The translations under genes were made by a program, and so were the position numbers. Of a stretch of DNA of 64,000 nt, positions 42,437-53,831 are shown piece by piece; within the stretch, counting starts at the first letter, position 1; each line of letters begins with the position of its first letter. The notes under the pieces are model-generated. The model had not been told where the DNA came from. It was given only the letters and a program-made list of their open reading frames with translations, and did not search any database. Source of the stretch: Aporhodopirellula rubra (GTDB lineage Bacteria > Planctomycetota > Planctomycetia > Pirellulales > Pirellulaceae); NCBI RefSeq assembly GCF_014192335.1, contig NZ_JACHXU010000013.1:1-64000 (forward strand). The letters run 5' to 3'.

Positions 42437-43237
42437 TCATCTAGCAAGAGTTGCCTCTGCGGGTTGTTGCATGTAGCGAATCAATCCATCCGTATTGAGT
42501 GGTTTGGGGAACCAGCGGTCGACTCCGTCGCTGCCATGGCTGATGCCGAGTTCTCGAGGTGACGTGCCGCTGGTAGCGACGATTCGCAGATGGGGTGACG
42601 CATTGATTCGTCGCAGGGCTCGCACGGTGGATGCGCCATCGCCGTTGGGCATCCGCATGTCGATCAGAACGAAGTCCGGCCATGGGTTGGATGCGAGATA
42701 ATTCAGGGCGTCAGTGCCGTCGCATGCGGTCGCGACTTCGCAGCCCCGCATCTCCAGCACGCCGGCCAGCAATTCGCGTTGGTCCGCGTCGTCCTCGACC
42801 AAGAGGACTTGAACGTTGCGTTTTGGTTGCGTTGTTGCGAGAGCCTCTTCAATGGCTTTCGCCTCGGCCTGTTTGCTGACGTCTCGTTCGATCTTGTCGA
42901 GTTGTTTGAGGACTTGCAAGAAAGTCACATTGGCTTCGTCAGTCATGCCGGCGTCCATTTGTTGCCGGTAGAACTTAAGGCCCAGGTTAAGTGTGTTGAG
43001 TTGGTTTCGAAGTTCATGGAGATTGTCGCAGGCCGATCCCCATGTCTTTTCAAAACTCGCGACGTCGAAGGTTTCTTCCTCCGTGCCGTCAACCAACTCT
43101 TTTCTCACGATGCGAATCTGCGGCGGTGCATCAATGCCGACACGCGCCGTGTGCCGGTCCGTACGAAGAATCGAAATCGTAACACCGAGTCCCGGAAAGA
43201 AAATGGACTCGTCTGATTTACGCGATAACACGAGCAT
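42437..43237 (-). CDS. CsrA-receiver fusion protein (RNA-binding regulator with phosphoreceiver)
   Basis: A 266-residue protein with three parts. Residues 1-52 are a CsrA domain: MLVLSRKSDESI start, VGIDAPPQIRIVRKEL end, with L4, R6 and R45 matching the RNA-contact residues L4, R6 and R44 of CsrA. Residues 60-135 are helical and contain H74 in HELRNQLN, which resembles a histidine-kinase H box, but no ATPase domain follows. Residues 143-258 are a receiver domain with E148/D149/D150, phosphoacceptor D193 in LIDMRMP, S223 and K245 in FPKPLN, all needed for phosphorylation. CsrA is normally a free dimer of about 60 residues. Here it is likely controlled by phosphorylation or dimer changes. The start is set by the CsrA motif; CGGAG precedes it. 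No kinase is adjacent. Confidence 0.93.
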   Translation of the reverse strand: MLVLSRKSDESIFFPGLGVTISILRTDRHTARVGIDAPPQIRIVRKELVDGTEEETFDVASFEKTWGSACDNLHELRNQLNTLNLGLKFYRQQMDAGMTDEANVTFLQVLKQLDKIERDVSKQAEAKAIEEALATTQPKRNVQVLLVEDDADQRELLAGVLEMRGCEVATACDGTDALNYLASNPWPDFVLIDMRMPNGDGASTVRALRRINASPHLRIVATSGTSPRELGISHGSDGVDRWFPKPLNTDGLIRYMQQPAEATLAR

Positions 43238-44389
43238 GAATGAACTCCGTTTCGATGTTCGTCACCACTGTGCCCGGGGGCATTGGAAGGTAGACGAAAC
43301 CGATGTGACTTCCGATTGAAAGTTGACGTGATGTCTGTCAGCAAGTAGCCACTTCCGTGCCCGCGTTGCAAGAGCGTCGTGCCCAACTCGTTCACTTGCA
43401 TATGCAAATGTTCCGCCTTTGTTGTTGTGAGTCAATACCTGATTAGCTGAAAATTGAGCGTCAAGGATTATCGCGTTCGTTAAGACGTTAACGTGCAAGG
43501 TGAATCGGTTGTTTGAGAGGGGCGATTGGTTGGTTGCATCTGGCTGTTCGCATGACGTTATTTGGGTTCGCATTGGTATCCGTGACGGAACCAAATCGGG
43601 AGTCGTTTGCAATGTTCACGGTGTCGAGGAACATACGCGGTGTCAACGAATGCGTCGTACGGTGTTGTCATCACGCAGAGGCTTTTGTCGATGGGCTCTT
43701 TGTGTCTTTGCGATTGGGACGCAAGCGTTTTAGTGCAGGTTTTGCGTGGATTTGTCGATGCGAGCGTCTCAGTCGCAGTCTGCCGTGAGCATGGCAGTCT
43801 GCTGTGAGAATGCATACTTTGATGACGTGGACTTCGTTGGCATGGACTTTGGAGATGCGGACTTTGGTGACGTGGTTGCTTCGTATGAGGATGACACGGG
43901 TGCGTCGTTTGATGCGTGTCGTCAGTGAGTTTGATCGTCTCTCTAGTCGCTCCTGGTTGTGCGTGGGGTTGTCGCGTTTTGGTGCGGCATGGGGGATTTC
44001 CCTCGACTTGATGTAGTCGGCGATCAAACGACCTCTCGATGTGCTTTTTCGATGTGTCGATGTCGTCATCTCGTTCGAGCCTATCAGATCCATTCATTTG
44101 GCCGGGAAGACAATGGCTGGGAGCATCTCGGGGAATGTGGTCTTGGTGATCGACGAAACAGACGTGATTCCTTGTTTGACAGACTGCCTGTTTGAGGCAT
44201 GCATGTGATGGGTGCATTCGGAGGTCGCGGGAAGCAGCCTTGGGAGATGGGGCCGTCCGTGTGGCAGATGAAGTCAATTCATTGTTTGTGGAGGACGCCT
44301 CTCTCGGCATCCCCGCGATGGGGCATGTGCCGAACAGGCAAGAAACTGTCACCGGTCCCGGGTGCATGCGCGGGACGGTTTTTGATTGC
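43238..44389. other. Gene-poor region, about 1.15 kb
   Basis: No convincing gene on either strand. A 351-codon minus-strand frame over part of it (43558-44613) is compositionally odd, and only its beginning reads as a piece of the transposase remnant. A short plus-strand frame near 43746 has a run of alternating Asp and Phe that recalls pentapeptide repeats but is very short. The region upstream of 43237 should hold the promoter of the CsrA-receiver gene. It may be DNA decayed after insertion of the adjacent IS. Confidence 0.5.
44355..44384 (+). terminator. Terminator-like hairpin at the edge of the IS remnant
   Basis: GTCCCG and CGGGAC, extended by ACC and GGT across one bulged base, form a stem around a 10-base loop, followed by GGTTTTTG on the plus strand. 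It sits at the point where transposase similarity ends. It may be a terminator or part of the old element end. Confidence 0.35.
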
Positions 44390-44987
44390 CTCATGAGATT
44401 TCGGGTGACTGCGTTTGGCGGGCCAAGCAGTAAATGGTTCCTTCTTCGATGACCTTTTCCGCCAATCTCGGTTTGGCAACCGGTTGCGTCAATGGTGATC
44501 AAACCTCCGGGAATCCTGATGATTTCGAGAAGTTTGGGACGCGGTGATCTCGTTGCTCGTCGTGTCGAAGGGCGTTTGTCCAACCGTGAAACGATTGACC
44601 GTAGCCCACGCACTGGTCATGTGAGTGGCCGCTTCGCCTTTCGCCAAATTGCAACTGCGACTCGTGACTGCGTCGAAGAGTGTTGCCATCGGCCGCGATG
44701 ACCGGTGCGGCGGTGATCGTGTGCAGTTCGGTTAGCCAGGCAAGCAGCATCGGATCAGACTCTTCGGGCTTGATCGCGTTGACAATTGCGTTGAAGCGAT
44801 CGTGCGAAAGAACACCGGCGGACATGTCTGGAAATACTGCGAACCAATTCTTCGTTATGTTGGCAAAACCGGCGATTGCCGCACCGATCGCCATGAATTG
44901 TGCATTGGCCAGTGGATAGGCTGGAACACCATTGCGAGAATCAGTGACGTTTTCAAGTTTGCCGATGAGAGAGGCAGAGCGATCCAT
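44390..44987 (-). pseudogene. ISAs1-family transposase remnant
   Basis: Read on the minus strand from the ATG at 44987, frame 1 gives LIGKLENVTDSRNG, YPLANAQFMAIGAAIAGF and then PVIAADGNTLRRSHE, which is the N-terminal region and the first catalytic Asp of ISAs1 transposases. The similarity then jumps to a second frame (HMTSAWATVNRFTVGQ, SNEITA), to a third (PKLLEIIRIPGGLITIDATGCQTEI, with the second catalytic Asp), and to another (AEKVIEEGTIYCLARQ). At least three frameshifts break it, and the last third of a normal 370-residue transposase is missing. It cannot be functional. I could not see terminal inverted repeats. Confidence 0.8.
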
Positions 44988-45220
44988 CGTTAGCAATCCG
45001 GGCGAGTTGTTTTGCCCGACTGCTAGCACCTGGTGATCTAAACGACGAATCGTTACTCAGTGCCACCATGATGCCCAGCGTTCATGATGCCCAGCGTGGC
45101 GCAGTCGCTCTGGGGGAAGAGTCCCACGGGTGTGGCCCCGTCGCGAGTGAGATTCGGTATACTCGACGAGATCTTTCGTTGACGCGGTTGCCACTCTTTG
45201 GTCGAAAAGTTCCTTCACGC

Positions 45221-51949: not shown

Positions 51950-52658
51950 CTCAACGCCCACCAAGACAAAAGAAAAGCCTCAAAGACAGCATCACAGCCG
52001 AACGCACGTCGCCTCGATGGACCGAGGGGACGCAGTTGAGAAGACGTTCGAACGGACAGTTTAGTGCATTTCCTGGAAAGGAATAGCCGATCTCGGCGGA
52101 CTTCGGGGGAGCAGGTTTTGGTGCACTGTGAGACGGTGAACGGGATTGTCAGCATTTGAAAAGCTCTCGCCGGTTTCAGTTTTCCTGCGGCAGGGGCGTT
52201 TCAGGTCGATGAGGCGGAAGTGTCCTTGAATCAAAGTGTATAGAGCGATGGCGGTGGTGGACGCGATTTGGGGGGGCGTCTCCTCCGGCTTCGTTTTTGC
52301 CGCCGCCGTTTCGTGCCCCGCGGTCGTCGTCGATACGACCGCTACAACCGAGTCGATGAGCGACTGTTCAAGGTCGAAAAAGGACGCGGTTGTTCAGTCG
52401 GTTCATTTCGAGGTGGTAACGTTCGAAAGACGATGCCTGACAAATTGGGGGCGAAAACTTAGCAGACTCTGTCAGGGTGAACCCTGCGGGCTCGGTGTCC
52501 GTTTGTTTTCAATCAATTGGTATGGCATCTGAGAGTCGATGCGAGGCCGATCTTCACTGATGGTCTCGAGCGTGGGCGATCATGACGGTTGCGTACATGC
52601 GACGTATGTAACCGACGAGCGTCGGGCAGCGTTGCGTGATTTCAAATGGGGCAAAATA
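51950..52658. other. Divergent intergenic region, about 710 bp
   Basis: Between the deiminase gene and the receiver/HD-like regulator gene. Two overlapping short plus-strand frames near 52236-52532 look like noise. The frame of the regulator itself is open to 52539. No gene seen. Confidence 0.5.
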
Positions 52659-53831
52659 ATGATTAAGAAAATACTGTTCGTCGATGATGATCCCGTTCTG
52701 CTGGGCATTCTCTCCGGTACGGCATCTCAGCAATTCGGTACGGAATTTGAGATTCAGACCGCCGAGGGTGGTCAGGCAGCGATTGAGGTCACCGACTCGG
52801 AGGGGCCGTTTTCCGTCGTTGTTGTCGATATGCAAATGCCTGGAATGAACGGCATCGAAACGATTGGGCATCTTCGGACAAAGATGCCACATGCTGTCTT
52901 CATGATGTTGACGGCGAACCGTGATTTGGAAACGGCGATTCACGCGGTGAATGACGGCAAGGTCTTCAAGTTTTTGTCCAAGCCGTGTGAACCGAGCGAG
53001 TTGGCTTCATCGATCAAGGCGGCCCAGTCGGAGCACAACTCTTTGGTATCCGCCAAGGACTTGCTCAGCGGCACGATCTCCGGGACGTTGGACTTGATGA
53101 CCGACTTGATCGAAATGCCGGACGGACGCCACATCGATACTGCTCGCATGTTGAACGCGACTAGTGATTTGGCCAGTCGGATGGCGATCAATTTGGGGTG
53201 GGAGGAACGCATTGCGGCTCGTGTGTTTCTCGTCGGAATTGCGATGCTGTCTCCGCAGGAGGCGGAGCGGTTTGATTGTTTGGATCCCACGTCGGATGAG
53301 CACAAGGAACTGTTTGGAAAGATTTGCAGGGTCTCTGCGGGCTTGCTGAAGAAGATCCCACGATTTGATTGGATCGTGGACCTGTTGCGTTTGGTTCCCA
53401 AGGCGGAGCGGTATCGAGAGTTGGGAAGCCGCGAAGAGTTGTCTGCGTTGGTTTTACGAGTGGTCTTTTACTGGAACTTCCTGACGATGAAAGGCATGTG
53501 CGTTGAGACTGCGTCGGCGACCATTCGGAAGATCATGCCAGAGTTGCCGGACAAACTAATTGGTGCTGTTGAGTGTCTTCACGACAACCGGGATGCTCTC
53601 TGTGTCAAAACAGTCGCCATGACGGAATTGAAGCCCGGCATGATTCCCTATCACAGCGTTACGAATGACCAGGGGTGCAAAGTCATCTCGGGCGGACGCC
53701 GTTTGACGCAGGCGATGATCGATAACCTGTGTGCCGACCGTGAGCTGAGTCAGCGACCGCTGATGGTCGTGATGAGTTCGATCTCAACTCTGCAATACGA
53801 CGATGCCTCTGGGGTCGCGTGTCCCGTTTGA
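52659..53831 (+). CDS. Response regulator with degenerate HD-GYP-like output domain
   Basis: A 390-residue protein from the ATG at 52659 (MIKKILFVDDD); the frame is open 40 codons upstream. The receiver (about 3-120) has DDD near 10, the phosphoacceptor in VVDMQMPGMNG near 56 and K in FLSKPCEP near 106. The C-terminal part has the helix pattern of an HD-GYP domain (GRHIDTARMLNATSDLASRM ... ), but the HD motif place reads FLVGIAMLSP and no GYP is present, so it should not hydrolyse c-di-GMP. The late block TELKPGMIPYHSVTNDQGCKVI, read in two parts, followed by LTQAMIDNL is the usual tail of planctomycete HD-GYP-like regulators. It may bind a partner or nucleotide. No kinase is next to it. Confidence 0.85.
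   Translation: MIKKILFVDDDPVLLGILSGTASQQFGTEFEIQTAEGGQAAIEVTDSEGPFSVVVVDMQMPGMNGIETIGHLRTKMPHAVFMMLTANRDLETAIHAVNDGKVFKFLSKPCEPSELASSIKAAQSEHNSLVSAKDLLSGTISGTLDLMTDLIEMPDGRHIDTARMLNATSDLASRMAINLGWEERIAARVFLVGIAMLSPQEAERFDCLDPTSDEHKELFGKICRVSAGLLKKIPRFDWIVDLLRLVPKAERYRELGSREELSALVLRVVFYWNFLTMKGMCVETASATIRKIMPELPDKLIGAVECLHDNRDALCVKTVAMTELKPGMIPYHSVTNDQGCKVISGGRRLTQAMIDNLCADRELSQRPLMVVMSSISTLQYDDASGVACPV

Follow-up and report, generated by a model that had tools for sequence, protein, structure and literature searches.

A CsrA–receiver fusion in Aporhodopirellula rubra with a DHp-like hairpin between its domains, and a possible phosphorelay to an mRNA-binding output

The fusion gene and its parts

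We analyzed a stretch of 64,000 nucleotides from Aporhodopirellula rubra (contig NZ_JACHXU010000013.1, positions 1 to 64,000; hereafter, the window). On its reverse strand, positions 42437..43237 hold a single open reading frame (ORF) for a protein of 266 amino acids, whose stop codon (42437-42439) ends it exactly where the first-pass annotation had placed the end. The gene starts with ATG just behind ACGGAG, and the ACGGA within the likely ribosome-binding site (43246..43250, reverse strand) is a case of the CsrA-type motif ANGGA. That annotation had described a CsrA domain joined to a complete receiver (REC) domain in one frame, and the domain search it suggested, with PF02599 and PF00072, bears this out, as both domains exceed their Pfam cut-offs: CsrA at residues 1-50 (43088..43237, reverse strand; 50.5 bits, cut-off 27, E 2e-13; the same coordinates in a search of the organism's own genome) and Response_reg at residues 144-254 (69.1 bits, cut-off 30.2, E 4.5e-19). 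The residues it had singled out are also all present. L4, R6 and R45 are kept in the CsrA part, where R45 corresponds to R44 of E. coli in an alignment made by eye. The receiver (residues 142-256; 42470..42814, reverse strand) has a complete site, consisting of the acidic pocket D149/D150, the acceptor D193, S223 and K245; the codon of Asp193, the predicted phospho-acceptor, lies at 42659..42661 on the same strand, and this position is D in 116 of 123 relatives, N in 4 and a gap in 3.

The window protein contains a CsrA domain but differs from an ordinary csrA product. It is not of the small stand-alone type, it scores below the cut-off of the NCBIfam csrA equivalog TIGR00202 (38.4 versus 70.1 bits), and its CsrA domain reaches 53.7 bits versus up to 92.4 for short copies in the same genome. 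Elsewhere in the window, a match to DDE_Tnp_1-associated (44502-45029, reverse strand; E 0.0022, under the cut-off) is perhaps a transposase remnant upstream of the fusion gene, and a 430-aa ORF at 52539-53828 on the forward strand has REC (residues 45-159) as its single Pfam domain at E 0.01.

The segment between the two domains had been passed over. By sequence comparison, residues of about 66-133 are a conserved DHp-like hairpin and no plain linker. In aligned relatives, the segment contains H-x-x-R-N-x-L-N and continues with the remainder of two predicted helices; in the window protein, the H-box-like residues are H74-x-x-R77-N78, and an AF2 model of the single protein predicts helices at 69-95 and 100-133 with low confidence (mean pLDDT 51.5). 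The HisKA-like core of the hairpin comprises residues 66-120 (42878..43042, reverse strand), and the codon of His74, the proposed phosphotransfer histidine, lies at 43016..43018. When a profile of 22 hairpins was compared by hhalign with the HisKA domains of 14 neighboring kinases, the probability was 96.0 (E 4.1e-9), with the histidine aligned on the H-box histidine; for a control, a helical stretch on the CheR side taken from 8 proteins of this kind, it was 0.3. Pfam matched HisKA weakly in 7 of the 24 members that make up our family profile, which include the window protein (best E 0.008, limit E 10), and gave no HisKA match in the window protein itself at the same limit. The hairpin profile matched 41 of 294 genomes of the phylum at E 1e-3, and among the stretches L097 to L112 were proteins, by eye HisKA kinases, that it matched at the H-box. 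Because of the hhalign result, the weak HisKA matches and these H-box matches, the middle part is best classed, on sequence, as a DHp-like hairpin without a catalytic domain.

SPOB_a (PF14689) matched 1 of the 24 members, at E 0.2. In the PDB, the hairpin profile hit 20 chains up to E 10; helical proteins, such as designed proteins and tropomyosins, predominate among them, and none is a histidine kinase by name. No HATPase (CA) domain was found in the window protein or among 25 of the 26 families listed for the 24 members; the window protein is no kinase.

Hairpins also occur in other settings. A 117-aa ORF in the organism's own genome (L233:6818-7168, contig C7) looks by eye like a CsrA remnant plus a DHp hairpin with no REC; it adjoins an ETR1_N-PAS-HisKA-HATPase-REC hybrid kinase and a CheB-CheR protein, and is possibly a free-standing phosphotransferase. 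At L094 / L245 (G435, contig C27), a DHp-like hairpin is joined to a seemingly degenerate REC, with no CsrA.

Family members and their kinase neighbors

CsrA and REC share one ORF in 123 cases from 91 genomes. When 199 genomes from the organism's GTDB family were searched at the protein level, full-length relatives were found in many genera, the closest of them (54-64% identity) in three other genomes of the same genus. The family profile, all 24 members of which have both CsrA and REC, matched 88 of the 199 genomes and 35 of 68 genera at E 1e-30 or better, although in two of these genomes (G089, G105) the sole match is without the beginning of CsrA. In the phylum as a whole, the profile matched 13 of 294 genomes: 4 of 6 from the same family, counting this organism's, 1 of 1 in the order, and 8 of 20 in the rest of the class, leaving, by subtraction and among the matches listed, 0 of 267 outside the class. 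Six further genomes outside the class, reached via related loci, held no fusion (0 of 6), an empty answer that alone shows nothing. In Acidobacteria, the phylum of G488, 14 of 199 genomes were matched at E 1e-25; among the matches listed, all start at profile position 76 or later and therefore lack CsrA. A scan of contigs with the window protein itself gave 25 loci, all matching at residue 119 or later, on the receiver side, and the 6 inspected held no CsrA fusion.

The counts below come from 114 stretches plus the window. They cover nearly all full-length relatives (not, for example, those in G119, G168, G182 and G194, nor the partial ones in G105 and G089), and the stretches L065 (CsrA cut), L233 and L245 contribute no scored fusion. 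Since the family profile includes the hairpin, the set may lean toward hairpin-bearing members. L2, R6, G34, A37 and R45 are identical in all 123 fusions, and L4 is present in 110.

The organism's own genome has 8 CsrA-domain loci, the window gene among them. A second full fusion (L007/L064) lies on contig C3; a further fusion copy on C39, additional to the 8, has lost its CsrA end at the contig end. Short CsrA frames of 68-86 aa make up L001, L002, L004 and L005, while L003, a CsrA locus of about 186 aa, gave no REC or hairpin match. At L008 (contig C21, match from 146122, contig end 146334), a CsrA-like ORF cut by the contig end adjoins a CheB-bearing frame of 1704 aa. An expanded repertoire is also seen in 20 fusion-carrying relatives of this genome, which have 6-14 CsrA-domain matches each.

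Of the 123 fusions, 74 have a kinase gene no more than 1.5 kb away, which runs in the same direction as the fusion in 44 cases and in the opposite direction in 30; in 46 of the 74, the kinase has a CheB domain. Many of the neighboring kinases are CheB-CheR-PAS hybrids. The frequency expected by chance is about 4.5%, a rough figure derived from 62 HATPase matches in the 8.55 Mb of the own genome. When only the 105 fusions with at least 1.5 kb of sequence on both sides are counted, a kinase is found within 1.5 kb of 70 and within 500 bp of 60. By a stricter measure, a kinase domain visible inside the 1.5-kb flank, the count is 51 of 105 fusions versus 1 of 35 non-fused csrA loci. The latter are 5 from the own genome and 30 from 20 relatives, these 30 being the best-scoring loci and no random draw; none of the 35 has REC or hairpin in frame, and L264 is shorter than the full flank.

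Of five neighbors searched with Pfam, three have CheB, CheR, PAS, HisKA, HATPase_c and REC together and one has PAS-HisKA-HATPase-REC; the fifth is a CheB-CheR-PAS protein without a kinase. In the own genome, the C3 fusion shares 67 bp with the longest ORF of a neighboring DUF4118-HisKA-HATPase-REC kinase. About 290 bp beyond the cut C39 copy comes a protein with the order CheB-CheR-PAS-HisKA-HATPase-REC. The remaining 49 of the 123 fusions have no kinase within 1.5 kb. The window copy is one of them, with no kinase gene anywhere in the 64-kb window; upstream of its relative in G141 (64% identity) and on the opposite strand, there is a non-hybrid CheB-CheR kinase at a distance of 1.6 kb, and a REC-only ORF separates the two. 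Since relatives lie beside histidine kinases, the likely function is control of mRNA binding by a kinase, as the first-pass annotation had proposed; the hairpin histidine, kept in 88 of the 123 relatives, points to a relay and not to a kinase that phosphorylates the receiver directly.

Retention of the histidine and the case for a relay

We read the state of the histidine in each fusion from the alignment and set it beside the type of neighboring kinase. Where a kinase is near, it is a hybrid (with REC) for 55 of 59 genes that keep H74 and a non-hybrid for 14 of 15 genes that lack the histidine (Fisher p 9e-11 for histidine versus kinase type, uncorrected for descent). Read from the kinase side, the histidine is gone in 14 of the 18 genes beside a kinase without REC. 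If two kinases cut by the end of a stretch are set aside, the counts are 55 (histidine, hybrid), 3 (histidine, non-hybrid), 1 (no histidine, hybrid) and 13 (no histidine, non-hybrid). The exceptions are L162, L222 and L242, with the histidine beside a non-hybrid kinase, and L226, without it beside a hybrid; L198 also has the histidine beside a non-hybrid kinase, one that is cut by the stretch end.

The histidine is likewise retained together with an intact REC. D193 and K245 are each present in 88 of 88 H74 proteins, whereas among the 35 proteins without the histidine both are kept in 19 and one is lost in 16. In other words, the histidine is absent from all 16 proteins whose REC has lost D193 or K245, and 15 of these 16 have no kinase within 1.5 kb. 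In some genomes (L071, L072, L171, L174), a single cluster holds both kinds of member, those that keep the histidine and those that lack it, each next to its own type of kinase.

Both associations go back to a small number of independent changes, and neither is significant once phylogeny is considered. On a quick tree built from the CsrA and REC columns, with the hairpin excluded, the 72 rows available for the kinase-type test show 5 changes of kinase type and 4 of histidine state, with 2 supported independent pairs, too few for the test to reach significance. For the histidine versus intact REC, there are 3 supported pairs, of which 2.7 on average go the same way and never the other way (median p 0.25); 44 of the 120 branches are open, that is, weakly supported. 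The genes without the histidine beside non-hybrid kinases are concentrated: 11 of the 14 fall in one clade of 13 rows, the others being L078, L187 and L229. In that clade, the histidine is lost and the linker length is mostly kept. Three CsrA-REC proteins of the clade, 186-190 aa long (L082.37, L200.29, L201.8), have no hairpin at all and a linker of 14-15 aa. Near each of them is a CheB-CheR kinase without a REC match; for L201.8, the stretch ends inside the kinase.

The surroundings of the histidine differ from those in the neighboring kinases. The acidic residue after it is E in 55 of 55 neighboring hybrid kinases and E or D in only 29 of the 88 H74 proteins, while R77 is present in 83 and N78 in 76 of the 88. 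An acid mostly lost and an asparagine kept would fit phosphotransfer without autokinase activity. The receivers differ, too. The first REC of the 55 hybrid kinases has T/S-G-Y in 38 and T/S-G-W in 12 (50 of 55 together); no fusion receiver has Y at this position (0 of 123), and none of the 12 commonest residues, which together account for 119 of 123, is aromatic. A related motif, FATGUY, is described for RECs acting as relay intermediaries and as absent from other hybrid kinases in an excerpt of PMC9981736, where its meaning is left unsettled.

We propose that the window protein is a response regulator with a CsrA output and its own phosphotransfer module, fed by a relay, and put the probability of this reading at roughly 0.55. 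The path, in which the transfers of phosphate, the arrangement of the dimer and the binding of RNA are all inferred, is as follows. A hybrid histidine kinase would autophosphorylate and pass the phosphoryl group to its own C-terminal REC; from there, the group would move to His74 on the hairpin of the CsrA protein, and then to Asp193 in the REC of the same protein. Two subunits would join their hairpins into a four-helix bundle adjoining the CsrA dimer, and phosphorylation of the REC would alter how that dimer binds ANGGA sites at ribosome-binding sites. Beside a kinase that lacks a REC, Asp193 would be phosphorylated directly and the histidine would no longer be needed. The chances are about even that this holds for the family at large: a His-Asp-His-Asp relay that would unite a DHp hairpin without a kinase, a REC and an mRNA-binding CsrA on one polypeptide, that would often be fed by CheB-CheR-PAS hybrid kinases and set translation without transcription or a sequestering sRNA, and whose His step would have been shed by members served by non-hybrid kinases. 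Counting against the relay are the small number of independent changes, the concentration of 11 of the 14 genes in one clade, the exceptions, the 49 fusions without a near kinase, the unsettled meaning of FATGUY, the lack of a Pfam HisKA match in the window protein and the poor structure model.

Kinases dimerise through DHp hairpins, and the hairpin could be a scaffold for dimerisation or docking only, with Asp193 phosphorylated directly by kinases and His74 merely structural. The 13-row clade, which lost the histidine and mostly kept the linker length, and the three members without a hairpin agree with this, indicating that the histidine is dispensable there, as does the failure of the relay-favoring associations to reach significance after phylogeny. 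However, a scaffold would leave unexplained why H74 goes with hybrid kinases and its absence with non-hybrid ones, and a structural histidine is not expected to track the state of the REC. We give this alternative perhaps a one-in-five standing.

A second alternative, which we consider improbable, is that the hairpin is a built-in phosphatase draining phosphate from its own (or a partner) REC via Asn78. The frequency of N78 among H74 proteins speaks for it, as a Thr or Asn one turn past the histidine is the phosphatase residue of HisKA kinases according to an excerpt of PMC5231405. Alone, however, phosphatase activity does not account for the retention of the histidine with hybrid kinases, and a reverse relay via His74 would give a similar sequence.

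The RNA side, known systems and significance

The motif that CsrA would bind is common in front of the fusions. Of 122 fusions, 92 have ANGGA no more than 20 nt from the start (7% in shuffled sequence), compared with 23 of 33 non-fused csrA genes and 43 of 522 other ORFs (71 of 522 if any early ATG is allowed). Its presence in the leader fits possible autoregulation and also a strong ribosome-binding site; because AAGGAG ribosome-binding sites include ANGGA, we keep autoregulation as a hint. Sigma-54-dependent promoters are mentioned for csrA in Pirellula in part of PMC12316311. Upstream of the fusions, such promoters were not enriched, with a score of 8 or more in 5 of 123, versus 3.6% of shuffles and 76 of 840 other ORFs.

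These data bear on whether the CsrA part has lost RNA binding and now serves as a dimeriser or protein-binding part, which its lower score relative to the short copies of the same genome would allow. We think this quite unlikely: R6 and R45 are invariant and L4 is nearly so across the fusions, L4 and R44 being critical for RNA binding by E. coli CsrA (PMC7652899, in part), and ANGGA is more frequent in fusion leaders than before other ORFs, although a strong ribosome-binding site also has the motif. The last alternative, a sequencing error that joined two separate genes, can be dismissed, as the same architecture recurs in 123 ORFs from 91 genomes and the nearest full-length relatives, in three other genomes of the genus, are 54-64% identical.

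Known controls of CsrA activity are antagonist sRNAs or partner proteins, FliW among them. In the BarA-UvrY-CsrB-CsrA pathway, kinase signaling likewise ends in CsrA control of mRNAs, but by way of the synthesis of CsrA-antagonising sRNAs (PMC7652899, in part), whereas here the CsrA protein itself would be the target. The domain combination is already catalogued: REC plus CsrA is listed as a class of response regulators in an excerpt of PMC2222644, after Galperin 2006, and REC is joined to CsrA in that class as in ours. The first-pass annotation, which knew of no characterised protein of this kind, thus claimed too much novelty for the combination; its narrower point stands, in that we found no characterised member in the open-access literature (subscription papers were mostly outside reach), nor any description there of the hairpin or the kinase partners. 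The relay is unreported in the literature we found, which was likewise open-access.

The closest parallels for the hairpin are ChpT, Spo0B and PhyT, in which the histidine of a DHp-like hairpin stands between two RECs, as it would here. ChpT is a dimeric DHp-type protein that does not autophosphorylate and carries the phosphate step from REC to REC (PMC3433190, in part), and PhyT passes phosphate from one REC protein to another via a histidine (PMC5898713, in part). These are separate proteins, however, whereas here only a hairpin is present, on the same chain as a receiver and an output. ChpT has a further, degenerate ATPase-like domain (PMC3433190, in part) that is absent here, a difference we count against the relay.

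ANTAR response regulators work by antitermination and not by control of the ribosome-binding site, through a different RNA-binding fold, and we know of no phosphotransfer hairpin in them. To our knowledge, it is wrong to regard E. coli CsrA as an orphan response regulator. It is so termed in a table of PMC12471899, an excerpt of which also shows that ANTAR proteins (the PdtaR, EutV and AmiR/NasR kind) likewise couple a REC or sensor to an RNA-binding output.

We found no study in the open-access literature of how the 6-14 CsrA-domain copies per relative genome are controlled. If the proposed relay is correct, two-component phosphorylation would act on CsrA within the same molecule, providing a direct route from kinase to translation. 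The family also makes the relay directly testable, as it naturally includes members that have kept the histidine and members that have lost it, both next to the kinase type that goes with them.
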